A DNA stretch of 64,000 nt from Bythopirellula goksoeyrii. Its GTDB lineage: Bacteria; Planctomycetota; Planctomycetia; Pirellulales; Lacipirellulaceae. Under the pieces are notes generated by a model. That model saw nothing but the letters and a program-made list of their open reading frames with translations, made no database searches and was not told the DNA's origin. The DNA is taken from assembly GCF_008065115.1 (NCBI RefSeq), contig NZ_CP042913.1, positions 3,817,658-3,881,657 on the forward strand, in the 5' to 3' direction. The position numbers were made by a program, and so were the translations under genes. Shown piece after piece: positions 9,503-39,003 of this stretch; positions within the stretch are counted from its first letter, which is position 1; every line of letters begins with the position of its first letter.

Positions 9503-9937
9503 TCAAATCAGCAGGCGGCACAAAAGAATGCATGCGTCTACCCGTGAATGGGAAATTACGAAAGAAGACAAGACAGAGGCGGCTCTCATCGGTTCTATTG
9601 TCATTTTCAGTTGCCAGAAGCAGCCGAAGGCGGCAAAGTCGGAGAGGGAGGACGAAGCTTGTCCAGACCGCGCCAGAGCAGTAAATGGTGTTTGATGGCA
9701 TTGACAGCTGCAAGGCTGTTTATCATTCGGCTCACTTTTGCACTCGTTACCGCAGCATTTGCTGGCACATGCGGTACAACACAGTGATGCACCGGTTGCT
9801 GTGGTCGAGATTCTGCAGCTACTCGTGTCTCGACATCCTGAGCAGAGGCACTGTCCAGCAAGAGTTGCTGGGCACGGCATCCACAAGGCGAGGCAGACTG
9901 CCACGACGTTTCGAATTCTTCTGGCTCGATAAAACAT
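9503..9937 (-). CDS. Small exported Cys-rich protein (copy A of a four-member local family)
   Basis: 144 aa from an ATG at 9937 (MFYRARRIRNVVAVCLALW), with signal peptide cleaved near TLAGQCLC. It then has dense Cys pairs (CCTACASKCCGNEC) and CSCQCHQTP, and a C-terminus ending CILLCRLLI. Similar proteins sit at 16681, 27523 and 38584; all share an export signal, a Cys/His patch and an end in Leu/Phe-Leu-Ile. The upstream frame to 9994 is not needed. The Cys clusters suggest soft-metal binding in the periplasm (inference). No named family is known to me. Confidence 0.65.
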   Translation of the reverse strand: MFYRARRIRNVVAVCLALWMPCPATLAGQCLCSGCRDTSSCRISTTATGASLCCTACASKCCGNECKSEPNDKQPCSCQCHQTPFTALARSGQASSSLSDFAAFGCFWQLKMTIEPMRAASVLSSFVISHSRVDACILLCRLLI

Positions 9938-10095
9938 ACTGACGCTCAGATAGTGCCACGTAAAAAGTCGATTAATACAACTATCGACTAACATTACAAA
10001 GTCGCATGATCAAAAACATCTCTTCCTAAAAGCACACATTGATTGCTATCACGTATTCTAGATGTGCTCCTCATATAATAACTCGACGGAGTGAC

Positions 10096-10650
10096 TCAGT
10101 GTTTGTGCCCTTCATGAGAGGCCTCTCCATGGTCGTGGTGAATCTCTCCACGATATTGTTTTCCACCGATTTCCACAGCAAGTTGTGCTTTTACATCTTC
10201 ATGGTCGAGATCTTCGGCAAGTTCCTCTTCAGTTGAAGCAAACCGTGACGACTTGCCAGCCGGGTCGCTCGACTGTGGGCTGGCTTTCAGTGCAAACTGC
10301 TCAGCTTTTCCGTCGTGGCTTAGATTCACCAATATTTCAGTTGCATAAAGTGGCACGAGTTTCTTTGCAGCCGAGTCGAGAAGATAAACCGTCACCGTGT
10401 GGGTCGCATCGTCATGAACTATTTCCGCATGATATTCCTCATTGCCAAGCTCAACCAGGCTACCACCATGAGGGCCTTCGCTGGGATGGGCATGGTCGTC
10501 GTGCCCCGTTGCCACCGTGGCGGGTGGGCCTGCGGTCTGCGTACCATGAGACGCGGTTGATGGCTGAGACGAGTCGCTACCGCAACCAATTATTCCAACT
10601 GCAACAACGATGCAAAAGGGAATTTCTAACAAAGTGTATTGTAGGTTCAT
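10096..10650 (-). CDS. His-rich lipoprotein, last gene of the CusBA-type operon
   Basis: 184 aa. The N-terminus has a lipobox (VGIIGCGS), so it should be a lipid-anchored envelope protein. After a Ser/Thr linker comes HDDHAHPSEGPHGGSLVEL, a His-rich GPHGG motif often seen in planctomycete proteins beside CusA/CzcA pumps, then a beta-rich domain (EEYHAEIVHDDATHTVTVYL). The end is again His-rich (EIHHDHGEASHEGHKH). It lies about 100 bp after the 10752 gene on the same strand. A periplasmic metal-chaperone or buffering role is inferred. Confidence 0.75.
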   Translation of the reverse strand: MNLQYTLLEIPFCIVVAVGIIGCGSDSSQPSTASHGTQTAGPPATVATGHDDHAHPSEGPHGGSLVELGNEEYHAEIVHDDATHTVTVYLLDSAAKKLVPLYATEILVNLSHDGKAEQFALKASPQSSDPAGKSSRFASTEEELAEDLDHEDVKAQLAVEIGGKQYRGEIHHDHGEASHEGHKH

Positions 10651-10751
10651 GATTAAACTCCTTCTGAAAATGAGTACAACTGTTTGACGTGAACTTTCGA
10701 ATTCTGTTGAATGGGACTCTGCGGTAAGATCTCACGAAATGCCCTGTTATC

Positions 10752-11477: not shown

Positions 11478-14400
11478 TTAGGTAAACTCTTCTTCTACTT
11501 CAAGAGCTATACGCTCCTGACCAGCCGCCACTACGCGGCGTGCAGAACCGATGCCTGTAGTCCAGAATAAAGCTGGACGCACGAGGAACTCCAACAGCGT
11601 ACTGGATACCAGTCCGCCGATGATGACCGTGGCTACCGGGTACAAAATCTCTTTACCCGGCTCACCAGCGGCGAGGGCCAGCGGTACCAGTCCGATGCCC
11701 GAAGTGAGAGCTGTCATCAGTACCGGTGCTAAGCGATCCTTGCCGGCTCGAACTACCATCTCGCGTGTCCAGTCCTCCCCTTCGTACTTGACCAAATGCA
11801 GATAGTGGTTGATCAGCAGGATTCCATTGCGAGAGGCAATACCACAAAGCGAAATAAAGCCGACCATGCTTGCCACACTCAGCGTCTGCCCGGTGAGATA
11901 TATCGACGCCACGCTACCAATGAAAGCCATGGGGAGCGCGACCATCACCTGTAAAGCAAGGTTTGCCGAATGAAACATTTTGTAGAGCACCAGGAACATA
12001 CCGACTAGCGATACGACAAAGAGGATACCGATCAAACGCGATGCCGACTGCTGGCTTTCGAACTGTCCGCTATACTCGACGAAATAGCCTGATGGCAATT
12101 CAGCGACAATCGGCTGGAGTCGCTCCTTAATATCTCCCACAACGTCGACGAGTCCGCGTCCAGAAACATTGCATTGCACGACAATTCGGCGTCGCACTTG
12201 CTCGCGATTGACTGTGTTTGGACCGCCGGCTTTGTACACCCGGGCAACATCTTCTAGCTTCACGCTACCACCACCAGGTAAATCTATTTGAAGTCGCTTA
12301 AGGGCATTCAGGTCTTCTCGAAACTCTTCCCCCATTCGGACCATGAGATCGAAGGTTCGTTGTCCGTCGAGCACCTGAGAAACAACCTCACCTTGCATCG
12401 CGGTCTCAACGAATTCATTGACGTCACTGCGGCGGAGTCCGAACGCCTTGAGTTTTTGGCCATCTGCTTCAATTCTTAGTTGGGGAATGATCACCTGTTG
12501 TTCGACCTGCAAGTCGCGGATGCCCTCGATATCCGCAATAGCGGCCTGCATACCTTGCGCCTGACGGCGCAGCTCGTCCAGATCATCTCCAAAGAGCTTT
12601 ATGGCAACTTGAGCCTTCACGCCTGAGAGCATGTGAGAAATCAGGTGCGCCAAGGGCTGTTCTACCGCAGTCACGATGCCGGGGATGTCCGCCAAGGCTT
12701 CGCTGATTTCTTCAATGACTTCTTCTCGCGAACGCTCGGTATTAGGGTTCACGGTCGCCACGAACTCTGTGACGTTGACTCCCTCGGCATGCTCATCGAG
12801 TTCGGCACGCCCGGTCTTCCGGACAAAGGCCGTCAAATCGTCGAGCTGGCTGAGACGCTCTTCCACACGTACCGCGACTTGATTCGAAGTGGCCAGAGAA
12901 GTACCGGGTGGCAAGAGCACATTGATCTGAACGGCCCCCTCATTGAAAGGGGGTAAAAAATCGCTCTCTAGTCGCAAGAGAGCCCAGCCTGAAATTGCTA
13001 CCGCAATCATCGCTGTTGCAAGGATTGGCCATGCCAATCTCAAACTGATCCGAATGACCATGCCGGCGATTACTTTCAACCAGCGAAGAAGGAAACCGTC
13101 TCTTTCTTCGCCAGCAGTACTCGATCCACTCAGTAGCCAGTAGCTCAGTACAGGTGTTACCGTCAACGATACTAAGAGGGAAGATGCGATCGAGACCAAA
13201 TAAGAGATGCCAAGTGGCGTAAAGAGTCTGCCTTCCATCCCAGAGAGGGCGAAGAGTGGCACGAATACTAGCATGACGATTACAGTGCCGTAAACAATCG
13301 AGTTGCGAATCTCAACACTTGCCTGAAATACCACCAAGAGTGGATTCTGAGGGGATTGCAATTGACGGTTCTCACGCAAGCGCCGGAATATATTTTCGAC
13401 GTCAACGATGGCATCATCGACTAATTCACCAATGGCGACTGCCAATCCCCCTAACGTCATCGTATTGACGGAAAGTCCAAACGCCGCGAACACCATCGCC
13501 GTGATCACGATAGAGAGTGGAATTGCTGTGAGAGTGATCAGCGTGGTGCGGAGGTTCATTAGAAACAGAAAAAGGATGATGACGACCAAAATGGCACCAT
13601 CGCGCAGTGCTTCCACGACGTTTTCAATTGCCAGATCGATGAACTCTTTTTGCTGGTACAATTCAGGAAGGATCCGGACGTCCGCCGGGAGAGAAGCTTG
13701 CATCTCCTCCAGAGCTGCAGTGACCCTATTGGTTACCTCGCGAGTGTCTCCTTGTGGCTGTTTTAAGATGGTGAGTACAACCGCTGTTCCACCGGTCATC
13801 TCGCCTTGCTCGTTACGGGCGTAGGCGGAACTATCGCCCCGCTTCACTTGCGCCCCTTCGACGATCCGGGCCACCTGCGAAAGCGTCACTGACTGCCGCT
13901 CCCGTTGTTTGACGACAACGTCGCCAATCTCCTCCACTGTTTTCACGCGACCGAGTGAGCGCACCAAATACTCGTTCGGGCCTTGTTCGTCCAGGTAGCC
14001 ACCTGCCGTGTTTTGATTACTTTGTTGTAGGGCCGTTTTTACTTCGTGCAGGGAAACTCCGAACCGCAATAACATGTCCGGATCTACCAACACCTGAAAC
14101 TGCTTGCGATCCCCCCCCATGACGATCACTTGGGAAACTCCTGGAATTGTCAGAAGTCGTTGACGCACAACCCAGTCGGCCAAAGTCCTCAGTTGAATCG
14201 GAGTAGTATCACCCTCAGCGGTCATGCCGATCATCATGATTTGACCCATGATCGACGAAATGGGCATCAATTGAGGTTTAGCTCCGGGTGGCAATGTATC
14301 GGTTGCGATGGCCAAACGTTCAGCCACGATCTGTCTGTCGTTGTAGATGTCCGTCCCCCAATCGAATTCGACGTAAACGACCGACAATCCGATACCTGAG

Positions 14401-14654
14401 GAGGTCCGAACCGCCTGAACACCTGTGGCACCGTTGAGTACCGTCTCAATCGGGAACGTAATAAGCGTTTCCACTTCTTCGGGGGCCATCCCGGAGGCCT
14501 CCGTCATAACCACCACACGAGGACGGTTGAGATTGGGGAAGACGTCGATGGGAAGCTGCAAGGCTTGCCAGCCACCATAGCCCAAGAGAAACAGCGCAGC
14601 CGCAATGACCAGAAGGCGGTTCAGCAGCGCGAAGCGAATGATTCCATTTAGCAT
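11478..14654 (-). CDS. cusA: Heavy-metal efflux RND pump, CusA/CzcA family
   Basis: Complete 1,058-aa pump protein, the family's usual length. It begins MLNGIIRFALLNRLLVIAAA and shows the proton-relay segment in the first membrane block (VAIGELVDDAIVDVENIFRR), two large periplasmic loops, and a tail with RLAPVLMTALTSGIGLVPLA. The relay segment here reads GELVDDA, the pattern of the divergent CusA-like group in this phylum, unlike GAIDFG in the other two pumps. The start overlaps the end of the upstream four-helix gene by 7 nt. The membrane fusion partner is at 15111-16514. The exported metal (copper/silver or divalent cations) is not certain, so the symbol is tentative. Confidence 0.9.
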   Translation of the reverse strand: MLNGIIRFALLNRLLVIAAALFLLGYGGWQALQLPIDVFPNLNRPRVVVMTEASGMAPEEVETLITFPIETVLNGATGVQAVRTSSGIGLSVVYVEFDWGTDIYNDRQIVAERLAIATDTLPPGAKPQLMPISSIMGQIMMIGMTAEGDTTPIQLRTLADWVVRQRLLTIPGVSQVIVMGGDRKQFQVLVDPDMLLRFGVSLHEVKTALQQSNQNTAGGYLDEQGPNEYLVRSLGRVKTVEEIGDVVVKQRERQSVTLSQVARIVEGAQVKRGDSSAYARNEQGEMTGGTAVVLTILKQPQGDTREVTNRVTAALEEMQASLPADVRILPELYQQKEFIDLAIENVVEALRDGAILVVIILFLFLMNLRTTLITLTAIPLSIVITAMVFAAFGLSVNTMTLGGLAVAIGELVDDAIVDVENIFRRLRENRQLQSPQNPLLVVFQASVEIRNSIVYGTVIVMLVFVPLFALSGMEGRLFTPLGISYLVSIASSLLVSLTVTPVLSYWLLSGSSTAGEERDGFLLRWLKVIAGMVIRISLRLAWPILATAMIAVAISGWALLRLESDFLPPFNEGAVQINVLLPPGTSLATSNQVAVRVEERLSQLDDLTAFVRKTGRAELDEHAEGVNVTEFVATVNPNTERSREEVIEEISEALADIPGIVTAVEQPLAHLISHMLSGVKAQVAIKLFGDDLDELRRQAQGMQAAIADIEGIRDLQVEQQVIIPQLRIEADGQKLKAFGLRRSDVNEFVETAMQGEVVSQVLDGQRTFDLMVRMGEEFREDLNALKRLQIDLPGGGSVKLEDVARVYKAGGPNTVNREQVRRRIVVQCNVSGRGLVDVVGDIKERLQPIVAELPSGYFVEYSGQFESQQSASRLIGILFVVSLVGMFLVLYKMFHSANLALQVMVALPMAFIGSVASIYLTGQTLSVASMVGFISLCGIASRNGILLINHYLHLVKYEGEDWTREMVVRAGKDRLAPVLMTALTSGIGLVPLALAAGEPGKEILYPVATVIIGGLVSSTLLEFLVRPALFWTTGIGSARRVVAAGQERIALEVEEEFT

Positions 14655-15052
14655 AGGGACGTGTTGGGGGTTGAGATTTTAGGGGGAATGCTTTTCGAAC
14701 GTTTTTCGAGTGATGAACTTAGATCACTTAGCATGCGTGCCAATTCTTCGCACAATGCGTACACAGTAGCGAACGTGGTTAGCGATACCAGATCTCGCCG
14801 ACGTACCACTTCTAATAGTGAAATAGTCTTCATGAGGCTGCCATATGCCACCGAAACAAAGTGAGCAAAATCATTGTTTGTTACTCTTTCGCAACCCACT
14901 GCAATGTTGGTTGGGATGGAGACGACTGCTTCGTACAGGTGGCTCGACAATCCATACATCTCATCATGGGGAAGGTTTTCGATCACTTGGTAAATTACAT
15001 CTGTCAGTTCGATGGACTTCGTCCACACGTCAAGTTTTTCAAAAGTGAACAT
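14648..15052 (-). CDS. Four-helix bundle protein (S23 / TIGR02436 family)
   Basis: 134 aa from the ATG at 15052 (MFTFEKLDVWTKSIEL). It follows the family pattern closely: FEKLDVW, LPHDEMYGLSSHLYEAVVSI, PTNIAVGCER and FAHFVSVAYGSLMK. Such proteins occur in rRNA intervening sequences or as free genes; the function is unknown and they form pentamers or bundles. It is unusual here: it sits between the membrane fusion gene and the pump gene, overlapping the pump start by 7 nt, so translation is coupled. Confidence 0.85.
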   Translation of the reverse strand: MFTFEKLDVWTKSIELTDVIYQVIENLPHDEMYGLSSHLYEAVVSIPTNIAVGCERVTNNDFAHFVSVAYGSLMKTISLLEVVRRRDLVSLTTFATVYALCEELARMLSDLSSSLEKRSKSIPPKISTPNTSLC

Positions 15053-15110
15053 AATCGGATGCTCTCTAACTTTTGTACAGTTCGTGTTTCTCAACACTCG
15101 ACTCTCCCGC

Positions 15111-16514
15111 CTAATGGTTGTGACCTGCGTGAGGATCGATGCCGCCCCCCGCTTTGTTCTTAAGTGCTAAGTGCATCTGGTAAGCACCGTTGCCAGCGAT
15201 TACATCCCCTTGGAAAAGCGCTCCATCATTTGCGACGACGACCGAGTCTTGATCCCGATAAAGTACCTGTACGGACACTTGATCGAAGTGGTCACCATTT
15301 TGCCGGTAGACATACGCTTCGGCCCCTTCATCGACTACGGCTGTCGTGGGCAATACCAACTGGTCTTTCCACGTCTCAACCGGTACTTTGAGCTGCATAC
15401 GTTGGCCAGGCTTGTAAAACCATTCAACGAATCGTTTACCAGCCGATGTGGATTTATCGAGCGCAATTCTATTTTTAAGGCGTAGGTAAACCTTAAAGGC
15501 CCGTGTATCGGGGTCGATCTGATCGGCTACATAGAGCACCTCCAGATCAGAAATTTCAGCGCCGGGTGAATCGTTCACAAGTAAATTGGCCGTCACATGC
15601 CGGCCCTGTTCAGCGGCACGTCGGATTTGAGTTGCATCATCCTCGAAGGCCAATGCTTCGATGTGTAGTTCGCAATGATCGGCGAGCACTGCCAATTCAC
15701 GACCTGCATCCACTTGCTCTCCTTGGGCAACTCCCAATCTCTGGATTTGATATGGGTGATCTTCTGCACAGCCGTCTCCGTTGTGAGTATGTGCTGGAGC
15801 CCGTATCGTGATCATTTGCAGAAGCTGTCCGGAATTGCGTATGTCCTTGACCTGTTCTTCGCTCAGTCCATGCAGCAGCATCGCCTGAGCTTCAGCACGA
15901 AGCGATGCCTCCAGCTTTTGTTTTTCATATTCTTGTTCAAGAACTCGGCGTCCTGCGATGACCCCCGCATCCAGTGACTTCAACCGCGTGATTTCGCGGT
16001 TTACGATGGCTAAATTCTCAGAAGTGCGCAAGTAGTCACGTTGTGCCGCGACCAACTCCTCATGGGTCAGGCGCATCTCAAATAAAGGTTGGCTCGGTTC
16101 AATCGCTTCGCCGTCGACTGAATGAATCTCAGTGATTACACCTGTCAATGGGGCCGTAACATGGGCCTGGGAACGTCCCGGTCTCTCCACGACAATTGCT
16201 GGTAACGAAAGCTTCTTGTCGTATTGAGTCGGCTTGACCGCGAAAGGCTCATATCCGATATTCTTCAGGCCCTTTTCACTTAATTCGATCGAGGCTGCTT
16301 CATTGTGACCCGCATGGTTGTGGTCGTGCTCGTCTTCGTGCGCAGCTTCTTCTGCGGCAATCGCAGCCGGCTTTGCAGATTCAGAAACCAAGCGCTGGAC
16401 CAATGGCCACCATTGACCGCGCGTGAATGTAGCGGCAATCGTGACACCAATCACAACGGCACCCAGCACGAATAGTTTGTAGCGTTTCTGATATTGAGTT
16501 GTCGGCTTAGACAT
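15111..16514 (-). CDS. Efflux RND periplasmic adaptor (membrane fusion protein, CusB-like)
   Basis: 467 aa from the ATG at 16514 (MSKPTTQYQKRYKLFVLGA), which has GGAGG upstream. One N-terminal membrane anchor is followed by a His-rich stretch (HEDEHDHNHAGHNEAAS), a barrel-sandwich/lipoyl region (PLTGVITEIHSVDGEAIEPS), a helical hairpin, and beta-barrel parts (VPVETWKDQLVLPTTAVVD). The C-terminus is again His-containing (GGIDPHAGHNH). It links the pump at 11478-14654 to an outer-membrane channel, probably the TolC-like protein at 19901 or another copy. The His-rich N-terminal stretch suggests metal loading of the adaptor. Confidence 0.88.
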   Translation of the reverse strand: MSKPTTQYQKRYKLFVLGAVVIGVTIAATFTRGQWWPLVQRLVSESAKPAAIAAEEAAHEDEHDHNHAGHNEAASIELSEKGLKNIGYEPFAVKPTQYDKKLSLPAIVVERPGRSQAHVTAPLTGVITEIHSVDGEAIEPSQPLFEMRLTHEELVAAQRDYLRTSENLAIVNREITRLKSLDAGVIAGRRVLEQEYEKQKLEASLRAEAQAMLLHGLSEEQVKDIRNSGQLLQMITIRAPAHTHNGDGCAEDHPYQIQRLGVAQGEQVDAGRELAVLADHCELHIEALAFEDDATQIRRAAEQGRHVTANLLVNDSPGAEISDLEVLYVADQIDPDTRAFKVYLRLKNRIALDKSTSAGKRFVEWFYKPGQRMQLKVPVETWKDQLVLPTTAVVDEGAEAYVYRQNGDHFDQVSVQVLYRDQDSVVVANDGALFQGDVIAGNGAYQMHLALKNKAGGGIDPHAGHNH

Positions 16515-16680
16515 ATGGGTTTGTTCCACCTCCAAGAATGCCAATACAAGCACCCTTGGTCGAGGACTGTGAGAAACTTCTGGAATAATCCTGAGGGGAC
16601 GAACGCCACGCAGGCATGAATTGCTCCAGGCTATCGCCCAAGCAGTTTACCTAGAGGCATTACAGCGAGAGTCGCTGCTA

Positions 16681-17100
16681 TCAGATCAAGAGAATGCTCA
16701 GCGCAAGGTGCGAGCGCACTGGCAGCCGTGGAGGCGACTGCGTAAGTGAGGACAATAGAGTTCGTGAGAGATTATCACAGCCCTGCAGAGAGAATTCGTC
16801 GCAAACGAGAATGTCATTATTGAACGGAGACGTAAATGAGAGATCCAAACTGCCCGACGAAGTCAACCATTGGCAATTTGCATGGTGACAGTCGTGGTCC
16901 TCACCAGGAGCGTGGTTACAAGGGGCTGTCGGAGCATTACCTTCGTGATGATGCGAATGTGTTGCCTCGTGGGAGTCGTGTTCAAACTGGTCTATAGAAC
17001 CTACTTGACAAGCTGGATGGTGATCCGCATGAGCGCAGCATCCCATGACGGCATGTCCGAGTACACTGAAAACAGTAAGTACGACGATTAATCGATTCAT
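16681..17100 (-). CDS. Small exported Cys/His-rich protein (copy D of the four-member local family)
   Basis: 139 aa: signal peptide MNRLIVVLTVFSVLGHAVMG, then CCAHADHHPAC, a long His-rich part (DSHEATHSHHHEG), CNHAPGEDHDCHHANC, and a C-terminus LALSILLI. It is the richest in His of the four copies. Its stop is 166 bp upstream of the adaptor start, so it probably heads the efflux operon. A metal-binding sensor, scavenger or chaperone role is inferred from composition only. Confidence 0.7.
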   Translation of the reverse strand: MNRLIVVLTVFSVLGHAVMGCCAHADHHPACQVGSIDQFEHDSHEATHSHHHEGNAPTAPCNHAPGEDHDCHHANCQWLTSSGSLDLSFTSPFNNDILVCDEFSLQGCDNLSRTLLSSLTQSPPRLPVRSHLALSILLI

Positions 17101-19900: not shown

Positions 19901-21307
19901 TTAATCTGTTGGTGTAGACAGGCTTTTTGTCAAAAGTAAACCATCAATTTCTGTCCAGCTTTGCCACAAGGCATTGAGCGAGTCGAGGTAAGCGAGATTC
20001 GTTTGCATGTAGGTCTTTTGGGCGGTGAGCAGGTCCAAATAACCTAACTCACCCAGCGAATAGCCGCGTTGTACAAGATCGAATGTTTTTACTGCACGCG
20101 GCAGAATCTCGTTGGCGTAGGTATCCGCTTGGGTTCTGGCATTGGAGTATTCACGGAAGGTGGTAGCCAAGCGGTTTTTCAAGTCGAGTGCGACACGGTC
20201 AATGTTTTGCGAGGCGACGGATATTTCTGCTTGGGCCTGACGGATGCCACCCTGGTTCTTATTCCAGATTGGCAAAGGGATCGTAGCTTGGATACCGGCG
20301 ATCGTGTAGTCGGTGCTATTGTCGTATTGGACAGTAAATTGGGTGTTGACATCGGGAATCGGTTCGACGCGAGCCCGTGTTAGAGCCCGGCGGGAACGCG
20401 AGAGTTCCGCCATCGCGGCTGCCATCTCGGGGCTCAAAGTGGTGATGCGCGCGAGGGTTTCGTCCCAATCAAGTTCGTTCGGCAAGGTTTTCGGATCGCC
20501 AACTAACTTTTGGGGGGGCAGGTCCAAGTCACCTACTACTGCGGAGAGTTGTTGCCAGGCGCCGATGAGTTCGTTCTCGGCCATGCGGTGGATGATCTGG
20601 GCGTTTTGCTGTTCGACTTCTGTTTGCAGAAGCCCCGCGAGCGGGATCTCTTCGGCGTCCAAAAGGCTCTGCGATGCTTTGACCGCTTCGCCTGTTGCCT
20701 CTAGGAGCGTATTTGCAGTCTCGATGCGCTGCTGTGCCACGAGGGCTCGATAGTAGCTGCTGCGGACATCGGTGAGGACGCGACGTTGTGTGGTGCGAAG
20801 TACATGCTCGGCCTTGTCGATTTCGGCAGCGACAATCGCGCGATTCTTGTCGAGCTTGCCGGCGGTAATGAACTCTTGGCCGGCATAGGCGCCCTGTTGG
20901 CCAGACAGGCCATCTTGGCCGACTTCGCTAGCGGCATAGCCAACCGTAGGGTTAGGTGGCAGCCCCACTTGCACATACTTGCCTCGTAAGGCACGGACCT
21001 TGGCCGAGGCTTGTCCCACGGAGGGATTGTTTGCCAGTGCTAGCTGCTCGATTGCATCAACGGTCAAGCCATCACTCTGAGAAAGATCAATCGGGGGAGT
21101 TGGTATCAACTCAGAGTACTCATCGGCAAGCAGCGACTCGGGTTGACTGACTTTAGAGTCTATCTCTGTGTAGTCCACCTGCTGAATGGAATCGTGATCA
21201 GTGCTATTGGTAGATACTGCATTTACTGCTGGAGAACTACCGGGTGCAGATACGCACCCTGCAAGCAATGCCAGCAACCAAACGTATTGTTTATTGATTT
21301 GGGTCAT
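19901..21307 (-). CDS. TolC-family outer-membrane efflux protein
   Basis: 468 aa from the ATG at 21307 (MTQINKQYVWLLALLAGCVS), preceded by AAGGAGG. The N-terminus has a lipobox (LLAGCVS), so it is probably lipidated. It contains the two long-helix repeats of the family: LALANNPSVGQASAKVRALR near the start and repeated Ala/Gln/Arg-rich helices later, with GELGYLDLLTAQKTYMQ near the end, typical of CusC/CzcC-like channels. It lies 66 bp below the permease gene. It supplies the outer-membrane duct for the ABC exporter and may serve the RND pumps too. Confidence 0.9.
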   Translation of the reverse strand: MTQINKQYVWLLALLAGCVSAPGSSPAVNAVSTNSTDHDSIQQVDYTEIDSKVSQPESLLADEYSELIPTPPIDLSQSDGLTVDAIEQLALANNPSVGQASAKVRALRGKYVQVGLPPNPTVGYAASEVGQDGLSGQQGAYAGQEFITAGKLDKNRAIVAAEIDKAEHVLRTTQRRVLTDVRSSYYRALVAQQRIETANTLLEATGEAVKASQSLLDAEEIPLAGLLQTEVEQQNAQIIHRMAENELIGAWQQLSAVVGDLDLPPQKLVGDPKTLPNELDWDETLARITTLSPEMAAAMAELSRSRRALTRARVEPIPDVNTQFTVQYDNSTDYTIAGIQATIPLPIWNKNQGGIRQAQAEISVASQNIDRVALDLKNRLATTFREYSNARTQADTYANEILPRAVKTFDLVQRGYSLGELGYLDLLTAQKTYMQTNLAYLDSLNALWQSWTEIDGLLLTKSLSTPTD

Positions 21308-21373
21308 CCTTGACTCCTCCTTGCAATTGTTATCGGTCACCGCTTGCGATCTTCGCTAAGCAGATCTTGTTCG

Positions 21374-22516: not shown

Positions 22517-22518
22517 GT

Positions 22519-26112: not shown

Positions 26113-26649
26113 TTAACGACGAATAAATACACGATTGGCCAACATGACGAAATTACCGCTCTCATCCTTCTGGGCACGCCCTTCAACAACGACCATGTCC
26201 GCTTCTTTGACTCCGAGCAATTGACGGGAATCTACGGAAACCAGTTTGCCTTCGGCATCGACGACCTTCACCATGGCGGTACAAGCCAATCGTTCCGTAG
26301 CACAGCAATCTCCTGTGCATAGTTCTCCTTCACCAGAGTCTTCCCCTTCAGCCACGACGCTCATGGAGGCGTCAAGCAAGGTAAAGGCAGCGCGTCCTTC
26401 GATCCATGGATTGGTCGAACCACCAATGCGTCCGACCATAACAAGCGGCTTGCCGTCCTCGGCCTCTTCGCGAGCTGCGATCACACCCACGGCACCCTCC
26501 GGTTCCTCAGTGAGCAGGAACTTGCTGCCGTCGATACTTACTGCGGTAGCGTGTATAGCCGTTGCAGTTGAATCTACAGAAGTTCCACAACCGATAACGA
26601 TTGGCAAACTAAGCAGGGCAAAAATAGTCAGTAAGTCAAATGATTTCAT
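26113..26649 (-). CDS. Lipoprotein with a CTGDCC motif, exporter-associated
   Basis: 178 aa. Signal peptide with lipobox ([10 protein letters not shown]). Two beta-rich halves follow; between them is [15 protein letters not shown] with four Cys, a likely metal or disulfide site. The second half ([19 protein letters not shown]) looks like a small OB-type barrel. Its start overlaps the stop of the HMA gene by 4 nt, so they are translationally coupled. Function is unknown; periplasmic metal handling is inferred from the company it keeps. Confidence 0.7.
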
Positions 26650-27320
26650 CTTTGAATTCCTTGGTTATTTGGTTGGTGAGCTTGTTGGTTGGTTCGGGAG
26701 GTGTTGGGGGCTGACCACTCGATATCAAATCGGCCATAGGATCCCACGATTGCCATAGGACGCTCTTGGACACCTGTGACTGCCCCGATCAATACCCAAG
26801 GTGAGATTTCCTGCTGGCTGGTAACCACTAAAGTGTTCTGCTGGGCACCGGCGTTCACCTTTTCCACGCCTTGGGTAGCGTAGAGTTGGTTGGCAATTTT
26901 CTGGGCACGACCCTCGTGGTTAAGATTCTCAACCACAACGTAACTTGTCGAAGCAGACGGCAATTGGCTCTTTTCGAGCGATTCAGGGGGAGTCAGCGTA
27001 AAGGTTGCTCCGGCAGTTGTCAGTTTAGTAGGGCCACCCTTACCGGCAGCGACAGCCTGCCAAAGTTGTTCCAGCGTTGCCCCCTTTTGCTGAGAGACCG
27101 TGACTACGACCGTTCTGTCTTTGAGATTGGCTTTGACGCCCGTCACACCTGGGGCAGCATAAAGCTGGCCAGCGACTTTCTGTACGCAGCCTTTGCAGCA
27201 CATGTCGGCTGCCACGATTTGCACTTGATAACTGCCTTGAGGGACCGTTGCTAAGGCATGGCTGCTCCCCATGAGAACTGCCAGAGAAATACATAGCAAG
27301 TAGGTTTTAATTTGGCGCAT
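26646..27320 (-). CDS. Exported tandem heavy-metal-associated (HMA) domain protein
   Basis: 224 aa. Signal peptide (TYLLCISLAVLMGSSHALA), then a first HMA fold with the metal site in VAADMCCKGCVQKVAGQLYA. A second, similar fold follows (YVVVENLNHEGRAQKIANQL) in which the Cys pair is lost and reads LNHEGRA. The C-terminal tail is Gln/Asn-rich. GGAG lies 10 nt before the start. It resembles MerP-type periplasmic carriers but is doubled. It is translationally coupled to the lipoprotein gene below. Confidence 0.82.
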   Translation of the reverse strand: MRQIKTYLLCISLAVLMGSSHALATVPQGSYQVQIVAADMCCKGCVQKVAGQLYAAPGVTGVKANLKDRTVVVTVSQQKGATLEQLWQAVAAGKGGPTKLTTAGATFTLTPPESLEKSQLPSASTSYVVVENLNHEGRAQKIANQLYATQGVEKVNAGAQQNTLVVTSQQEISPWVLIGAVTGVQERPMAIVGSYGRFDIEWSAPNTSRTNQQAHQPNNQGIQR

Positions 27321-27522
27321 GATGTTCGTTCTCCATCCATTACGGGTTTAGAAATCCATTTCGAAGTGCGCATCACTAGCTGACTGATTGATTGCGATGA
27401 TGCGACAGCTAGACGATGTCGATGTAGTTGTAGTTGAAGGTAGTTTCACGCACAGGAATTGGTGCGATAGCAACCTTTAAGAATTGTCGCGCATGATGAC
27501 ACGACAGAAGTTCGCCGCAAAA

Positions 27523-27999
27523 TCAAATCAGAAAGCGGCAGAGATGGGCGCAGCGCTCGGGAGAAGATTCAACCATCGCCTCATTGGCCCAGGCTGAAAT
27601 ATGCAAAGAAGCCGAATCGCAGTTTGCAACTGCGCTAACGGATACAGTACCCCCCACGAAACCTTGCAGTAATAACTCGTTTGGCTCAGGAGCGCTGCGT
27701 GGCAATTCTAAGGGCTGCGGTGCCTGATGGCACCAGCACTCGGGAGGACAGGGACAAGAGCCATTTTGACTCCCGCTGCAATCTTCAGAACCACTTGGCT
27801 TGTCCGCGTTGCATCCATGCGAGTGGGAGCATGAATGAGTCACTGCGCAGTGATGTTCGCAACTGGTAACCGCAACTGCGGCGGCCTTGCAACCACCCAG
27901 TTCGCAGAGCCAATGTGCCTGCTGAAAACCAGACGACAATGCCAGCACTACCCCCAAGAGGGCTATGGCTCGCTTCGAGTTGTCGTAATGGCGAAACAC
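27523..27999 (-). CDS. Small exported Cys/His-rich protein (copy B of the four-member local family)
   Basis: 158 aa from a GTG at 27999, which has GGAG 9 nt upstream; an ATG five codons earlier (28014) lacks a site. Signal peptide KRAIALLGVVLALSSGFQQA, then a Cys/His-rich part (CEHHCAVTHSCSHSHGC), CSGSQNGSCPCPPECWCHQA, and the end CAHLCRFLI. It is 202 bp upstream of the HMA gene and likely heads the exporter operon. Confidence 0.7.
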   Translation of the reverse strand: MFRHYDNSKRAIALLGVVLALSSGFQQAHWLCELGGCKAAAVAVTSCEHHCAVTHSCSHSHGCNADKPSGSEDCSGSQNGSCPCPPECWCHQAPQPLELPRSAPEPNELLLQGFVGGTVSVSAVANCDSASLHISAWANEAMVESSPERCAHLCRFLI

Positions 28000-28116
28000 T
28001 ATCGCTGGCTCCATACTACATGAGCAGATTGTTCAACTCTATCTGAATCGGCACATTTGGACTGTGCAGCTTAACCGATCCTGGGATTTCGGACAAAGCC
28101 ATTGTTCGCTCTACTA

Positions 28117-33491: not shown

Positions 33492-36400
33492 TTAGACTGT
33501 CAATCGTTCTGGCGCGTTTTTGGATTCAAACGAATAGTCTGAATCCAATTCGTGCTCGACTTCTGGATTATTTGGCGGATCTGGTTGGAGACGATGACGG
33601 TCATCATCTCCTCCATCTCCATCAAATTTTTCAACAGGTGAGTTGAAAACAACGTAAAGTACTCGCAGGACGAGCAAGCTCATAATCATCGCACTGCAAA
33701 CGCCACCAATGACTACGGTGGCGAGTGGTCGCTGAACTTCCGCACCCATGCCCGTGCTGAATGCCATTGGCACGAAGCCAAGACTAGCGACCAGCGTGGT
33801 CATCAAGATCGGACGTAAGCGAGTCATCGCGGCTTCTTCAACCGCTTCGTCGAGTGAGCGACCAAGCCTTCGCAGTTGTCGAATGGTCGATACGAGGAGC
33901 ATATCATCGAGCACCGCGACGCCGGACAAGGCAATGAAGCCAACCGCTGCCGAAATCGAAAACGGCATATCGCGAATCCACAAGGCAAGCACACCACCGA
34001 TCCAAGCAAACGGAACGCCCGTAAAGACTCGTAGCGAATCGACCCAGTTACGATACGTCATGTAGAGCAGAGAGAGAATCATCAAGAGCGCGATCGGCAC
34101 GACGATCATGAGTCGTGTTTGGGCACGCTCCAGATTCTCAAACTGCCCCCCCCACTCAATGCGGTATCGTCCAGTAGGGAATTGCACTTTTTCAGCGACG
34201 ACTCGTTGCGCTTCGGCAACGAAACTGCCAAGGTCACGCCCCCGAACGTTTGCCTCGATTGTGATCCGTCTCTGATACCAATCCCGTTTAATTGTGTTCG
34301 GTCCGTCGACCTTTTCGATCGTGGCCAACCGCGATAACGGAATTCGTTCGCCCGATGGTGTCGCGACTAAGATTTGACGAATGGCATCCGGATTAGCACG
34401 GGCTTTCTCTGGCAGCCGGATAATCAAAGGAAATCGCAACTGCCCTTCGTAGACTTCGCCAACATGGTGCGTCCCGAGTGCCCGCACGAGATTCATCACT
34501 GTGCTAGCCGTGATTCCATAACGTGCAATCTCGTCTTGTTTCACACGGATTTGCAGAACAGGCTGGCCGGATACTTGTTCCACTTTGACATCTTCCGCAC
34601 CGGGAATCGTGTTGAGCGCCCGTTCGACCTCCGATGCCTTTTCGACCATCAAATCAAGATCATCGCCGTAGAGAATGGCGGCCACATCGGAGCGAACCCC
34701 CGAAATCATTTCATTCATCCGCATTTCAATCGGTTGCGACAGAGCGAGACGCGGGCCGGGCAAGTCTCGCAATTCTTCTTGAACAAGCTTCGTAAGCTCT
34801 TCTTGTGTCTCAGCACGCATCCATTGCTCACGCGGACGAAGCGTGATAAACAGGTCGGTAAGCTCTGTTCCCATGGGGTCGGTTGCAACTTCTGCTGTGC
34901 CGATTCGACTCCAGACTTGAGCAATCTCGTCTGGGAACTTTTCTAATAACACCTGCTCCATTTTTGTGTTGTAACGAATCGATTCCTCCATTGTGGTTCC
35001 GGCCAGCCGCACCACATTAAGCGTAATCGCACCCTCGGAAAGCCGAGGAACGAACTCGGAACCTAGGTTAGGAGCTACGAGCGAAAAGACGCTCACCAGC
35101 AGCAACAAAGCCGAACCAATGACGAACGCTTTGTGGTGCATCGTAAACCGCAGCACCGGTGCGTAAAGTCGCTTGAGCACCCTGATAAGCAGCGGCTCTT
35201 TTTCTTCAATGCGTTTGGGCAAAAACAGGCTTGCCAAGACAGGCATCAATGTCAGCGACAAAACCATCGACCCAGCCAGTGCCATGATAACGGTCAACGC
35301 CATTGGCCTGAACAACTTGCCCTCGACCCCTTCGAGGGTCAGGATCGGCAAGTAGACAATCATGATGATAAGTTCGCCAAACATCGTCGGTTTACGAACT
35401 TCGACTGCTGCATCGCGAATAATTTGTAAGCGACTTCTGCCGTTTCGGTTATTCGCTAAGTGTCGCACACAGTTTTCGATCATTACTACCGAACTATCGA
35501 CGACCAGTCCAAAGTCAATCGCACCAAGGCTGAGCAGGCTGGCTGCAATTCCGAACTTCAACATTCCTGAGAAGGCGAAAAGCATCGATAGCGGAATCGC
35601 CATCGCAACGATGATTCCCGCTCGCAGATTGCCAAGAAAGATGAACAACACTGCAACAACCAGCAGTCCACCCTCGAATAAGTTTTTCTGGACGGTGTGA
35701 ATAACGTCGTTGATCAGCTCCGTTCGGTCATAGACCGTTTGGAGTTTCACTCCGGGAGGCAACGTTTCACGAATCGATTGTACCTTTTGCTTGATTGCCC
35801 AAGTAACATGGTGGCTATTCTCACCCATCAGCATGAAGCCAAGTCCCAGAACCGCCTCGCCGCGACCGTTCGCAGTGACAGCACCGCGACGGATTTCGTG
35901 ACCGACCTGCACGTCTGCCACATCGTGGACGTAAACTGGAACGCCTTCTTCGGTCGCGATTACGATGTCTTCGATCTCTTGGATATTGACGGTTCGCCCA
36001 ACACCGTGAACGAGTAGCATTTCGCTGCCGTCAGTGACCGTTCCACCGCCGACATTTTCATTATTCGATTTGATTGCATCGGAAACCTGCTCAAAGGTCA
36101 GGCCGTACTTGAAGAGACGCTCAGGATCGAGTCGCACTTGATATTGTTTTTCGTAGCCGCCCCAACTGTTTACTTCCGCAACGCCGCGCACCGACCTCAA
36201 CTGGGGCTTGACGATCCAATCATGGATCGTTCGCAATTCCGTCATCCGCTTGATGCGTTCTTCCTGCGACACCCTCGAGAAATCGACGCCGTCATACACC
36301 AAGACATAGTGAAAGACTTCCCCCAACCCAGTTGAGACAGGTCCCATTTGCGGTCGCTGAATTCCGTCAGGCAATTCTACGGTTGTGAGACGTTCGTTGA

Positions 36401-36728
36401 TTAATTGACGAGCGAAGTAGATATCAATGCCGTCGTCAAAAATAACCACAACCTGCGACAAACCGAACTTGGAAATCGAGCGAAGTTGATTCAAGCCTGG
36501 CAAGCCGCTGATCGCTTGCTCGACTGGAAATGTGATCTGTCGTTCGATCTCTTCGGACGCTAACGAGGGGGCGACCGTATTGATTTGAATTTGCACCGGA
36601 GTCGTATCCGGGAACGCATCAATGTCGAGTTGTTGAAGTGAGAACACCCCAACACCCGCAAACAGCAACGTAACCAAAATAACCGTGGCACGGTGCTTGA
36701 GCGAAAAATCAATGACCCAATTAAGCAT
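33492..36728 (-). CDS. czcA: Heavy-metal efflux RND pump, CzcA family
   Basis: 1,078 aa from the ATG at 36728 (MLNWVIDFSLKHRATVILVT), preceded by AGGAG 7 nt upstream; the frame is open to 36830 without use. Proton-relay segment GAIDFGLVVDSSVVMIEN, second-block segment GVAVLDDMLLVSTIRQLRRL, and tail RLRPILMTTLVASLGFVPMA are intact. A charged C-terminal extension (DGDGGDDDRHR onward) of about 45 residues is added. Pattern closest to pumps for Co, Zn and Cd. Symbol by family only. Confidence 0.92.
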   Translation of the reverse strand: MLNWVIDFSLKHRATVILVTLLFAGVGVFSLQQLDIDAFPDTTPVQIQINTVAPSLASEEIERQITFPVEQAISGLPGLNQLRSISKFGLSQVVVIFDDGIDIYFARQLINERLTTVELPDGIQRPQMGPVSTGLGEVFHYVLVYDGVDFSRVSQEERIKRMTELRTIHDWIVKPQLRSVRGVAEVNSWGGYEKQYQVRLDPERLFKYGLTFEQVSDAIKSNNENVGGGTVTDGSEMLLVHGVGRTVNIQEIEDIVIATEEGVPVYVHDVADVQVGHEIRRGAVTANGRGEAVLGLGFMLMGENSHHVTWAIKQKVQSIRETLPPGVKLQTVYDRTELINDVIHTVQKNLFEGGLLVVAVLFIFLGNLRAGIIVAMAIPLSMLFAFSGMLKFGIAASLLSLGAIDFGLVVDSSVVMIENCVRHLANNRNGRSRLQIIRDAAVEVRKPTMFGELIIMIVYLPILTLEGVEGKLFRPMALTVIMALAGSMVLSLTLMPVLASLFLPKRIEEKEPLLIRVLKRLYAPVLRFTMHHKAFVIGSALLLLVSVFSLVAPNLGSEFVPRLSEGAITLNVVRLAGTTMEESIRYNTKMEQVLLEKFPDEIAQVWSRIGTAEVATDPMGTELTDLFITLRPREQWMRAETQEELTKLVQEELRDLPGPRLALSQPIEMRMNEMISGVRSDVAAILYGDDLDLMVEKASEVERALNTIPGAEDVKVEQVSGQPVLQIRVKQDEIARYGITASTVMNLVRALGTHHVGEVYEGQLRFPLIIRLPEKARANPDAIRQILVATPSGERIPLSRLATIEKVDGPNTIKRDWYQRRITIEANVRGRDLGSFVAEAQRVVAEKVQFPTGRYRIEWGGQFENLERAQTRLMIVVPIALLMILSLLYMTYRNWVDSLRVFTGVPFAWIGGVLALWIRDMPFSISAAVGFIALSGVAVLDDMLLVSTIRQLRRLGRSLDEAVEEAAMTRLRPILMTTLVASLGFVPMAFSTGMGAEVQRPLATVVIGGVCSAMIMSLLVLRVLYVVFNSPVEKFDGDGGDDDRHRLQPDPPNNPEVEHELDSDYSFESKNAPERLTV

Positions 36729-36738
36729 CCTTGCTCTC

Positions 36739-38418
36739 CTATTCGGCGACGCAGTCGCAGCCTGCACCAAGGTTGTTTTTAAGAAGCTGCGCCCGAAGTA
36801 CGTCGCTGCCAGCGGTCGCGATGACTTCACCGGGCAGGACGCCGGAAATCACTTCGGTGTATTTTTCGCTAGTAGCGCCCAATCGAACCGAGCGAACATG
36901 GAAGACCTTGTAGTTCTCTGGACTGTCGAAGTAGTTCTTGTCGCGAACAAAGACGACTTGGCAACAACCTTCCCAGTGCGATGAACCAGTCGGAATGACG
37001 ATGGCGTCAGATTCTGTCCGTAAAACTACTTCTCCCGTGCCAAAAGTTTCATTGCGAAGCCTACCGTTAGAGTTATCTAGCACCGCGCGCACTTGAACCA
37101 TGCGAGTCGTTTTATCTGCCGACGTGCTGATCCAATCGATGGTCCCACTTACACTCTCACGACTGCCATCAGCTTGGAAGTGAACTGGTTTCCCGATCGC
37201 CAACTGGCTCATATTTTCAAGCGGAACGTTCAGTGTCAGCCACATCTGGCTAATGTCGGCGACCTGAAAGAGAATACGTGTCGAATCAACTACTTCGCCC
37301 GGGGATACGAATCGTTCGATCACCACTCCATCCAGGGGAGAGAAGATTGGCAACAGATTTGATGTTACCAATTGGCTGTTGAGTCGTGCCTGAAGCGAAT
37401 CCGGGATTCCGAGTAGACGCAATTGGTCAAGAACCTGTTGTTCGGACAATCCCTGCAGCGAATCGACTTGCACTGGCAAGCCAAGATTTCGCAGCGACTG
37501 CTCTACGCTTAAGACATCTGCTTGAGCCTTTGCTAAAGCAGCTTCCGCGTCGAGTATTAGGGATCCGGCGATCGCGTTTCGGGCTTCAGTAAGTCTAGCG
37601 ACGTTTTGTTGTTGAAGCTTTCGCTCTGCAAGTGAGCGCATCAAAGAGGATTTGAGTCCGCCGACTTCAGCGGCATCGACGACCGCAAGAACTTCACCTT
37701 TGGAAACTCGATCTCCTACGTTCTTCTCAACGACCCAGACAGTGCCCGGCACGCGAGAGGCCAAGCTTGCTTTGCGCGTCGGATCGTAAACGATTTCCCC
37801 ACTCCCATTGACCACCTCAACGACCGGAGCGCGTTCGACCAACTCAACATCGACACCTGCCTGACGCACTGACTCAATGGATGCGAACTGGATGCGAGTC
37901 TTGTAGACTTCGCAAGCACTGTTGTTCTCTTTTCGTGGAGCAATAGCGAGCGCCCGTGCCGCCCGCTCAAAATCAGTTGGCAAAACCATCGGCGTATCCT
38001 TCAATTGCGCGACATCCGGATGATGAAGCGGACAGTTATGAACGCCGTGTTCGGGACACCATCCATAGTCCGGCCCTTTTGGCATCAGTGTCGGGTCGCA
38101 CTCGACGCAGATGGATTCCGGCACACTGTGTTCTTCGCACCAATCACTTATGACCGGTTTCACGGTGCCAGTCAGTGCGGCAAATTTAGGAATCTTCCAG
38201 TCGTTGTGGTGCCCGAAGTAAAACACCGCCGCGAATCCCGCGAGGACCAACGTCGGTCCAATGCTTTCCAAGAGCATCGAAAGCACGCGTCGGAGTGGAC
38301 TACGAGGCTTGGCATTCGCACCTTGTTCCGACTCTTGATCCGAGCGTCCGTTTGCAGATGACGGGGCGGGATGGCGGCTCTGTGGATTATCTAGCGCATC
38401 AATAATTGAGTGACTCAT
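36739..38418 (-). CDS. CzcB-like membrane fusion protein with metal-binding N-terminal domain
   Basis: 559 aa from the ATG at 38418 (MSHSIIDALDNPQSRHP), preceded by AGGAG 7 nt upstream. After a Pro/Ser/Gln cytoplasmic tail and a membrane anchor (ESIGPTLVLAGFAAVFYFG) comes a Cys/His module: WCEEHSVPESICVECDP and WCPEHGVHNCPLHHP. Then the lipoyl/barrel part, coiled coil (LARLTEARNAIAG region) and barrel domains (RILFQVADISQMWLTLNVPL). It ends 10 bp before the pump start. The module is shared with the lipoprotein at 33103. Confidence 0.9.
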   Translation of the reverse strand: MSHSIIDALDNPQSRHPAPSSANGRSDQESEQGANAKPRSPLRRVLSMLLESIGPTLVLAGFAAVFYFGHHNDWKIPKFAALTGTVKPVISDWCEEHSVPESICVECDPTLMPKGPDYGWCPEHGVHNCPLHHPDVAQLKDTPMVLPTDFERAARALAIAPRKENNSACEVYKTRIQFASIESVRQAGVDVELVERAPVVEVVNGSGEIVYDPTRKASLASRVPGTVWVVEKNVGDRVSKGEVLAVVDAAEVGGLKSSLMRSLAERKLQQQNVARLTEARNAIAGSLILDAEAALAKAQADVLSVEQSLRNLGLPVQVDSLQGLSEQQVLDQLRLLGIPDSLQARLNSQLVTSNLLPIFSPLDGVVIERFVSPGEVVDSTRILFQVADISQMWLTLNVPLENMSQLAIGKPVHFQADGSRESVSGTIDWISTSADKTTRMVQVRAVLDNSNGRLRNETFGTGEVVLRTESDAIVIPTGSSHWEGCCQVVFVRDKNYFDSPENYKVFHVRSVRLGATSEKYTEVISGVLPGEVIATAGSDVLRAQLLKNNLGAGCDCVAE

Positions 38419-38583
38419 GACAGAACTCCTGCTGGTGGAACACGAGGCAACCACGGATCACGACTAACGCAATCCGAGTGGTTTACCAAGGGGCAAGCGA
38501 ACCAGACTGAAAAACTCGACGCGCAACAGCAGATGCAATTGGTTACGGAGTTCGCTGGTTAGCGAGCGATGGCCAGCAGCGGC

Positions 38584-39003
38584 CTAGATCAAGAGAGACG
38601 CGAAGACGAGACGAATCGAGCGTCCGCTTAGCAAGTCAAGTCGATGCGGGTGTTCTTTACATTGCGACGCAATAATTTCCGTGACATCCGCCGTATCGAA
38701 GCACACTGGTAAGAAGTCTAGCGACAACTCGATGCAAGCAGCAGTTGTACGACCACTAAATTCAAACGCAACCTGACAAACGCAGCCGGTATCGCAGGGA
38801 ACTGGACAATCGCAAGGCGAATCAATAGGAAGAGGTGCCGGAACCTCGTCGCTTTGGCACGCTTCATTGTGACCCGCCGAACAAGTGCAAGTGACTGCTA
38901 TCTCTTCAGTAAACACACAAGCATCACCATTGCTAACCGCACAAAAGAGCGGGCACATAGTCACACGAAGTGCGATGAACGAGATGATGGCCAGACGAAA
39001 CAT
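38584..39003 (-). CDS. Small exported Cys-rich protein (copy C of the four-member local family)
   Basis: 139 aa from the ATG at 39003 (MFRLAIISFIALRVTMCPLF). The signal peptide is followed by CTCSAGHNEACQ, CDCPVPCDTGCVCQ, a less conserved middle with CFDTAD, and the C-terminus LVFASLLI. It is 165 bp upstream of the CzcB start and probably opens that operon. Stop codons and last codons match those of copies A, B and D closely. Confidence 0.7.
   Translation of the reverse strand: MFRLAIISFIALRVTMCPLFCAVSNGDACVFTEEIAVTCTCSAGHNEACQSDEVPAPLPIDSPCDCPVPCDTGCVCQVAFEFSGRTTAACIELSLDFLPVCFDTADVTEIIASQCKEHPHRLDLLSGRSIRLVFASLLI

Follow-up and report, generated by a model that had tools for sequence, protein, structure and literature searches.

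Small Cys/His-rich proteins encoded ahead of exporter genes in Bythopirellula goksoeyrii: candidate nascent-chain leaders with conserved ends, near-fixed motif spacing and biased stop codons

The genome of Bythopirellula goksoeyrii is a single contig of 6.47 Mb (NZ_CP042913.1), of which we analysed a stretch of 64,000 nucleotides (positions 3,817,658 to 3,881,657; hereafter the window). Four small open reading frames (ORFs) on the minus strand of the window, at positions 9503, 16681, 27523 and 38584, each stand ahead of exporter-type genes, and are referred to here as leaders for the role that is argued for below. The four share a common layout, consisting of an export-type N-terminus (called by eye from a hydrophobic N-terminal segment), a Cys/His-rich body with 8-19 Cys and 3-15 His residues, a metal-type motif, an unconserved linker of near-fixed length, a conserved tail, a stop codon, and a gap of 165-202 nt before the exporter genes. 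The encoded proteins end in CRLLI (9503), SILLI (16681), CRFLI (27523) and ASLLI (38584), and among the 181 window ORFs of at least 80 amino acids an [LF]LI C-terminus is found in these four only. An earlier note on this DNA had described the same ORFs as one local family of exported proteins, and the ORFs themselves, their export-type N-termini and their LLI/FLI ends were all confirmed.

Leader 1 (9503..9994, minus strand, as are all leader features and the genes behind them; 163 amino acids, stop TGA) is a variant of what is termed class A below. It carries the motif CSCQC (9698..9712), the last Cys of which lies 64 residues before the C-terminus, and the tail CILLCRLLI (9506..9532). Leader 2 (16681..17100; class B, 139 amino acids, stop TGA) has a C-x4-C motif (16873..16890), with the last Cys 63 residues before the C-terminus, and the tail RSHLALSILLI (16684..16716). 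Leader 3 (27523..28014; class A, stop TGA) is listed with 163 amino acids, and the family alignment suggests that it probably starts at a GTG codon five codons inside the listed ORF, giving 158 amino acids; the last Cys of its motif, CPCPPECWC (27730..27756), is 68 residues from the C-terminus, and its tail is CAHLCRFLI (27526..27552). In the case of leader 4 (38584..39003; class C, 139 amino acids from an ATG, stop TAG), the motif is CVC (38776..38784), again with 63 residues following, and the tail is GRSIRLVFASLLI (38587..38625). A C-x-C motif, claimed earlier for all four, is thus present in three, leader 2 having C-x4-C instead. The last codons and stop read CTG ATT TGA in leaders 1 and 3, TTG ATC TGA in leader 2 and TTG ATC TAG in leader 4. 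These contexts are alike, as had been pointed out, but not as a nucleotide signal: it is the encoded peptide that is alike.

The distance from each leader stop to the next likely ATG is 197 nt for leader 1 (9306..9502), 166 nt for leader 2 (16515..16680), 202 nt for leader 3 (27321..27522) and 165 nt for leader 4 (38419..38583), in agreement with the 165-200 bp given earlier. Behind leader 1 (5863..9305) follow an ORF without a Pfam hit, a carbonic anhydrase, a MacB/FtsX permease and an ATP-binding cassette (ABC) ATPase, with a second gap of ~177 nt between the first two; these genes may form one operon and carry metal. Leader 2 is followed (11478..16514) by a CusB-like adaptor, a 23S rRNA-IVP-type ORF and a CusA-like pump of the resistance-nodulation-division (RND) type. 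Leader 3 precedes (19901..27320) an HMA-domain protein, a lipoprotein-like ORF, a MacB/FtsX permease, an HlyD adaptor, an ABC ATPase, a second MacB/FtsX permease and a TolC-type channel, and leader 4 (33492..38418) a CzcB-like adaptor and a CzcA-like RND pump. Exporter-type genes therefore lie behind all four leaders, rather than three of four, with ABC/MacB genes behind leaders 1 and 3 (joined by HlyD and TolC in the latter) and RND pumps of the CusBA and CzcBA types behind leaders 2 and 4.

Relatives of the leaders were gathered by single-member searches in the same family and order, and then sorted by their tails. Class A, represented by leader 3, has the tail RCAxLCRFLI, and class B, represented by leader 2, PVRxHLAxxVLLI. 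Class C comprises three sequences only, leader 4 and two relatives (L071 and L073) matched at E values of no better than 0.0015 and 0.012, with GRSLRxxxASLLI-like tails. Class D, whose members come for the most part from a single other family within the same taxonomic class, ends in RxxxxxQVWLL, with Trp at position -3 in 23 of 24 members. The leader 1 type has three relatives, ending in CRFLT, CRFLA and CRFLL, and is class A-like by its tail. Left out were weak matches without a full open frame, two class D rows (L085, a copy of L047, and L101, a chance match) and one outside match of the leader 1 type with internal stops. Tails were counted in 127 collected proteins (18 class A, 85 class B and 24 class D).

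Classes B and D are homologous over their length (hhalign probability 99.4), and homology between classes A and B is not detectable (probability 1.7). The four window proteins could not be aligned with one another (6 invariant columns; 15-30% identity to the first sequence), so the single family proposed earlier does not hold; instead, the comparisons indicate at least two unrelated sequence families (A, and B with D) that have one layout, plus a third tail type (C). None of the four matches a Pfam or NCBIfam model at E<=10, and scans of 24 class B members (Pfam and NCBIfam) and 17 class A members (Pfam) returned stray weak matches only, for instance one class B member against LpqS, a putative mycobacterial copper lipoprotein in NCBIfam (E 0.019). 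The earlier view that the family is an undescribed one stands in this respect.

At E<=0.001, and with at most 13-20 candidates per genome scored (at most 20 for class B in the order), the class B profile found matches in at least 85 of the 196 genomes sampled from the order and at least 18 of 294 from the phylum, and the class A profile in at least 25 of the 196. In the host genome, the class B profile retrieved leader 2 and one paralogue, and the class A profile leader 3 with one paralogue and, at E 0.09 and 0.35, two weak matches; leaders 1 and 4 were found by neither profile. Paralogues head separate operons, as with the two class A and two class B leaders of this genome and the six class B/D-type matches in genome G313. 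In two further genomes (G029 and G030), class A, class B and leader 1-type matches are found in that order at distances of ~8 kb, and at two loci (L081 and L131) a class A operon is followed by a class B leader and cusB. Class A loci have a common gene order (HMA protein, lipoprotein-like ORF, permease, HlyD, ATPase, permease, and often TolC), in which identity to the window is 80-92% for the permeases and ATPase, 69-81% for HlyD, 53-78% for TolC, 58-71% for the lipoprotein-like ORF, 39-59% for the HMA protein and 35-64% for the leader. The body of the leader, like the HMA protein, is thus fast-changing beside slowly changing transporter genes, whereas the end of the leader is not. As a separate observation, one class B leader (L137, in G046) is followed by an ORF that is weakly similar to carbonic anhydrase (26.7% identity) and by eye resembles a SulP-type transporter, and then by a metal P-type ATPase in place of the RND pump.

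The tail is the best-conserved stretch of each alignment, with 3.68 bits in the last 9 columns of class A and 3.14 bits in the last 11 of class B, as compared to 2.19 and 1.77 bits for the other columns and 1.58 and 1.35 bits for the 40 columns before the tail, where the majority residue has a mean share of 28%. The runner-up windows are the class A motif (3.47 bits) and an N-terminal GCC motif of class B (3.11 bits), the latter nearly equal to the tail. Tail residues are encoded by varied synonymous codons in the relatives, which argues for selection on the peptide, with conservation extending to the stop, and rules out the tail as a DNA or RNA element. The leaders resemble regulatory arrest peptides, taken here as a working type and not a sequence family, in being short ORFs at the head of genes with conserved C-terminal residues and a divergent body. 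That the tail is functional, possibly as a translational signal, had been among the options named in the earlier note, and the conserved, class-specific tails of the relatives support it; the terminal LLI proved to be one version of a longer class-specific tail, although a C-terminal motif as such is conserved.

The two strongest features of the leaders had gone unremarked, and both concern the stop codon. The first is the distance between it and the metal-type motif. Counted with invariant alignment columns as anchors, the residues that follow the last Cys of the motif number on average 66.8 in class A (standard deviation 1.6, range 63-69, n=17), 63.8 in class B (1.6, 60-67, n=24) and 63.5 in class D (1.9, 59-66, n=24), such that all 65 aligned proteins fall within 59-69 (a looser motif expression gave a class B range of 41-65, apparently through one misassigned motif). 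The part from the first conserved Cys to the motif is more variable in length, with standard deviations of 5.0-8.7 (Levene p 0.001-0.005), and the linker itself is nearly without sequence constraint, its right-anchored pairwise identity having a median of 0.08-0.12. In a further set of 60 genes, taken as the next-ranked class B profile matches outside the first set and with expectations fixed beforehand, 59 had an alignable Cys, of which 58 fell within 59-69 (range 58-68), with a standard deviation of 10.4 for the other part. Eight of the 60 have a profile match that ends before the tail, and all eight fit, with values of 62-67.

The second feature is the identity of the stop codon. In classes A and B, TGA is used by 34 of 41 non-redundant leaders as compared to 44 of 141 neighbouring genes (Fisher 5e-9), and TAG by 1 of 41 against 46 of 141. 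For this comparison 6 near-duplicates among 71 leaders were removed, and the background was made up of those genes in the retrieved stretches with a match to a protein of the window, for the most part exporter genes. The further set contained 40 TGA, 13 TAA and 7 TAG stops, and other ORFs of at least 200 amino acids in the same loci (n=88) contained 35, 27 and 26, respectively, a difference that holds for TGA (p 0.0015) and TAG (p 0.015). In addition, the class B stop co-varies with the tail, in a pattern noticed after the fact: proteins with a hydrophobic residue at -2 and no Trp at -3 end at TGA in 59 of 71 cases, and the others in 3 of 14. Selenocysteine insertion or readthrough at TGA is ruled out by TAA stops at the same place, which occur in 4 of 18 class A leaders and in 2 of the 25 class B leaders of the first set.

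Long gaps and exporter genes are also general features of these loci. The gap after the leader is 108-307 nt, with a median of 164, in 57 usable of 71 loci, 14 being left out for an ambiguous next start (all 71: median 165, range 23-479); starts were chosen by a script rule, and not on evidence of use. Gaps between other matched neighbours (n=122) have a median of 39 nt, with 16 of at least 100 nt. A match to an exporter gene of the window was obtained for the ORF after the leader in 59 of the 60 further loci (50 CusB-like, 8 CzcB-like and 1 TolC-like), with gaps of 43-431 nt (median 153; 52 within 100-310). The earlier expectation that relatives would lie upstream of exporters is therefore met in nearly every case, and, of the two ways in which the family was expected to fail, the lack of alignment among the four proteins did come about, whereas the C-terminal motif and exporter context hold strongly in relatives; taken together, the earlier interpretation is partly supported. 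The region from -120 to +110 around the leader stop, a window picked after the profile was seen, is pyrimidine-rich and has more C than G when compared to the 3' ends of other genes (C-G 0.047-0.054 versus ~0; p 1e-4 to 2e-5). As for individual loci, the gaps at L043 and L044 contain very long near-perfect palindromes (stems of ~24-26 pairs) after the leader stop, which are possibly small mobile repeats.

Computation brings out, around the leaders, a layout with a conserved tail, a near-fixed motif distance, a stop bias, a place before exporters, a long gap and a C-rich, G-poor region. On these grounds it is quite likely that each ORF is a cis-acting regulatory leader (an upstream ORF) of the exporter genes behind it, producing a metal-sensing nascent chain that is held at termination. 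It is hard to see why a finished exported protein should have a conserved end, a motif at a near-fixed distance from the stop and a biased stop codon, all of which are read here as what a nascent chain acting with the ribosome at the stop codon would need. The spacing is read as a measure of how far a site outside the ribosome lies from the peptidyl-transferase centre; approximately 65 residues span the ribosome plus the translocon. In the proposed mechanism, export would begin at the N-terminal signal of the leader, and, on arrival of the ribosome at the stop codon, the upper exit tunnel would be filled by the conserved tail, which would slow or block peptide release. The Cys/His motif would then be held ~59-69 residues away, outside the ribosome; for a chain in SecYEG, this places the motif near the periplasmic mouth. 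Metal on the motif would alter the dwell time of the ribosome at the stop, and the parked ribosome would act on the mRNA that follows, either keeping Rho off the pyrimidine-rich, C-over-G stretch or making the next gene's ribosome-binding site accessible. Given that the genes downstream are exporters of metal, the response would sensibly have a sign such that the stall is longer with metal, allowing expression. The arrest, the binding of metal and which metal is bound, the sign of the response and its coupling to the downstream genes are steps that we infer from the sequences.

A number of points weigh against this reading, the case for which is computational throughout. The further set is not fully independent of the first, since six of its genes were among earlier search rows, the profile covers the tail and linker, and 5 pairs are at least 60% identical, two of them with first-set members; the proteins are related, such that none of the counts represent independent events. 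With the same-locus control, the stop bias (p 0.0015) is weaker than with the earlier background, which gave binomial values (3e-7 and 2e-5) that are too favourable. TGA is not universal, as evidenced by the 13 TAA and 7 TAG stops in the 60 further genes and by leader 4, which combines TAG with LLI, and class D leans away from TGA (1 of 21 versus 14 of 56), a borderline difference that is not significant alone (p 0.056). Fast change is not specific to the leader, given the 39-59% identity of the HMA protein directly behind class A leaders, and the choice of the -120 to +110 window with its profile in view belongs among these points as well. Finally, the periplasmic sensing site is a guess, because sensing by CruR, a regulator discussed below, did not need its signal peptide, according to the available part of that report (PMC9426467).

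The same caution extends to the RNA that follows the stop. RNAalifold proposed, from 8 class A sequences, a pairing of post-stop bases with the next Shine-Dalgarno (SD) site, and in the gap behind leader 4 the first bases can pair strongly with the ribosome-binding region of the next gene, better than any other gap window. Release of the SD site is unsupported class-wide: masking 12 nt after the stop shifts its accessibility by -0.001 (A), +0.013 (B) and +0.048 (D). Own pairings have a weak edge over swapped ones, with 130 of 5000 within-class permutations as good (924, 1744 and 116 of 5000 for A, B and D alone). A post-stop hairpin of class A has 90.7% of cells paired in 9 of 18 sequences picked by eye, against 24-46% in slid controls; a double-sided change is seen in 1 of 6 pairs, covariation is hardly above that of shuffles, and the hairpin is absent from leader 3 of the window. 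Sequestration of the SD site by post-stop bases is kept as an option, with weak or no support from duplex ranks, from permutations of partners and from accessibility.

Other explanations of the leaders fare less well than a nascent chain held at termination. An ordinary periplasmic metal-binding protein, acting as a sponge or as a CusF-like pump chaperone and first in the operon by chance, would fit the export-type N-terminus, the many Cys and His residues, the adjoining metal exporters and the similarly fast divergence of the HMA-domain protein behind class A leaders. This is improbable, as nothing in a mature protein would call for a fixed distance from motif to stop over an unconserved linker, a conserved end, a stop bias or a gap of ~160 nt. 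Alternatively, the hydrophobic C-terminus might tag the protein for degradation, or for binding by a PDZ domain, by a protease of the periplasm (HtrA or Prc, for example), making it short-lived unless metal-bound. PDZ proteases recognise hydrophobic C-termini, and an HtrA-like gene with PDZ domains is present at 2615-4138. At 9-13 residues, and with Arg, His and Cys conserved, the tails exceed the length of a PDZ ligand, however, and the stop bias, the co-variation of stop and tail, and the spacing would be left unexplained, making a tag very improbable. Least probable of all is regulation by translation in general (coupling, or protection from Rho by any translating ribosome) with no nascent-chain arrest, the peptide mattering otherwise, which would suit the long gaps and the pyrimidine-rich, C-over-G stretch around the stop but would not conserve a peptide tail, a spacing or a stop identity.

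The known system closest in outline is CruR of Bordetella pertussis (DUF2946, PF11162), which is described here from the part of its report that was available (PMC9426467). CruR is, like the leaders, a small exported Cys protein at the head of an operon, in this case a copper-related one, with a gap of 162 bp, a C>G region (in cruR one where Rho terminates transcription), and a near-constant motif spacing; in CruR, metal modulates expression (PMC9426467). Between its CXXC and RAPP motifs are 45 residues, constant to one or two, and the addition of five causes a strong loss of the copper effect; RAPP is followed by three residues (PMC9426467). Arrest by CruR was demonstrated by toeprinting, as far as the available part of a second report relates (PMC12992588). 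Unlike the leaders, CruR controls an importer, and its effect is relieved by Cu (PMC9426467). The leaders, in turn, differ from CruR in that their near-constant spacing is one of 59-69 residues from metal motif to C-terminus rather than 45 between motifs, and in that their conserved tail extends as far as the stop codon, which is itself biased.

Membership of DUF2946 itself was not found. PF11162 had no match among the four proteins of the window at E<=10, among the 24 class B and 17 class A members at E<=0.1, or in the host genome at E<=0.01, and RAPP or RGPP is absent from the last 15 residues of all 127 collected proteins. A single family that includes DUF2946 is ruled out by these scans and by the comparison of classes A and B. 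At E<=0.01, PF11162 has matches in 8 of 59 genomes searched, 2 of them above the curated cut-off, and these two proteins carry RAPP and RGPP; with such genuine DUF2946 proteins in the same order, the two types coexist. A few members of DUF2946 are reported for Planctomycetes in the available text (PMC9426467). As an observation apart, three loci in other genomes of the order (L147, L149 and L150, the latter two below the Pfam cut-off) encode DUF2946-like proteins with RAPP/RGPP near the end, 141-167 nt upstream of ORFs with a prepilin-like segment, FTLIELLVVIAIIG, and represent a possible CruR-type leader of a non-metal gene.

The second comparison is with CutF of Rhodobacter capsulatus, which acts on a stem-loop over the cutO SD site and can be likened to the leaders as an exported nascent protein with a Cys motif, a C-terminal stall-like end, a position upstream of metal-detoxification genes and rapid turnover (PMC9973294, in the part available). 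The survey of CutF-like proteins in the same source used a length below 150 amino acids, PP in the last 15 residues, a signal peptide and a next same-strand gene within 1000 nt (PMC9973294). All four window proteins lack PP in their last 15 residues and two of them exceed 150 amino acids as listed, the gaps being within the survey's limit. PP occurs in the last 15 residues of 25 of the 127 collected proteins (24 of 85 class B), and the length and PP filters together are passed by 15 (0 of 18 A, 14 of 85 B and 1 of 24 D). By analogy, the four leaders would work like CruR or CutF, yet fall outside DUF2946 and the published CutF-like definition.

Arrest peptides of other kinds have been described as well. 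A partly available study reports an LPPP arrest peptide in other planctomycete orders, and stalling of other arrest peptides with a stop codon in the A site as shown or judged more likely; its scope is protein-localization genes, and the available part describes no metal motif (PMC10987492). CzcI, a small metal-related protein upstream of the czcCBA genes of an RND exporter in Cupriavidus, is like the leaders in having no C-terminal proline motif, as presented in the available text (PMC9973294). No CzcI-type NCBIfam match was obtained for the four leaders or 24 class B members, the presence of a CzcI model in the library being unchecked. TnaC-type arrest at UGA, read by RF2, blocks release and shields downstream RNA from Rho, as is proposed for the leaders. 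TnaC differs from them in sensing tryptophan in the ribosome, and has no export or metal motif. The metal-responsive nascent-chain regulators found described, in the portions of the sources available, rest on C-terminal proline motifs.

Some neighbouring features of the window deserve mention. The ORF without a Pfam hit behind leader 1 (8772-9305) is receiver-like by eye, and similar ORFs follow two leaders of this type elsewhere at 187 and 189 nt, as compared to 197 nt here. A 23S rRNA-intervening-sequence-type protein (PF05635) is encoded between cusB and cusA behind leader 2 (14648-15097), and a 63% identical one is likewise placed at a paralogous locus (L127). Short cation-efflux (CDF) ORFs are found at 28228-28794 and 41976-42314, the second being a partial domain that may be a remnant. 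Adjoining the metal cluster, at 43854-59192, are genes for a TrwC-type relaxase, a TrwB/TraD-type coupling protein, a CHC2 zinc-finger (primase-type) protein and two tyrosine integrases, and the cluster may lie next to or on an integrative mobile element.

Among the top-ranked titles and abstracts of the searches made, a coverage that omits most subscription journals, no account of these planctomycete leaders was found. The layout can serve as a search rule that does not depend on sequence similarity, and its application to the window yielded the four leaders plus three ORFs that overlap other genes. A bolder and distinctly tentative proposal is that metal sensors arresting at release-factor-dependent termination arose in planctomycetes on more than one occasion, with a tail matched to the stop codon, a ruler of 59-69 residues setting the motif at the periplasmic mouth of SecYEG, and one leader per pump. 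If this is true, the cell would read periplasmic metal with an unfinished protein, and metal-responsive nascent-chain control would work without C-terminal proline motifs, at the stop codon and in unrelated families, in a phylum where the regulation of metals has received little study.

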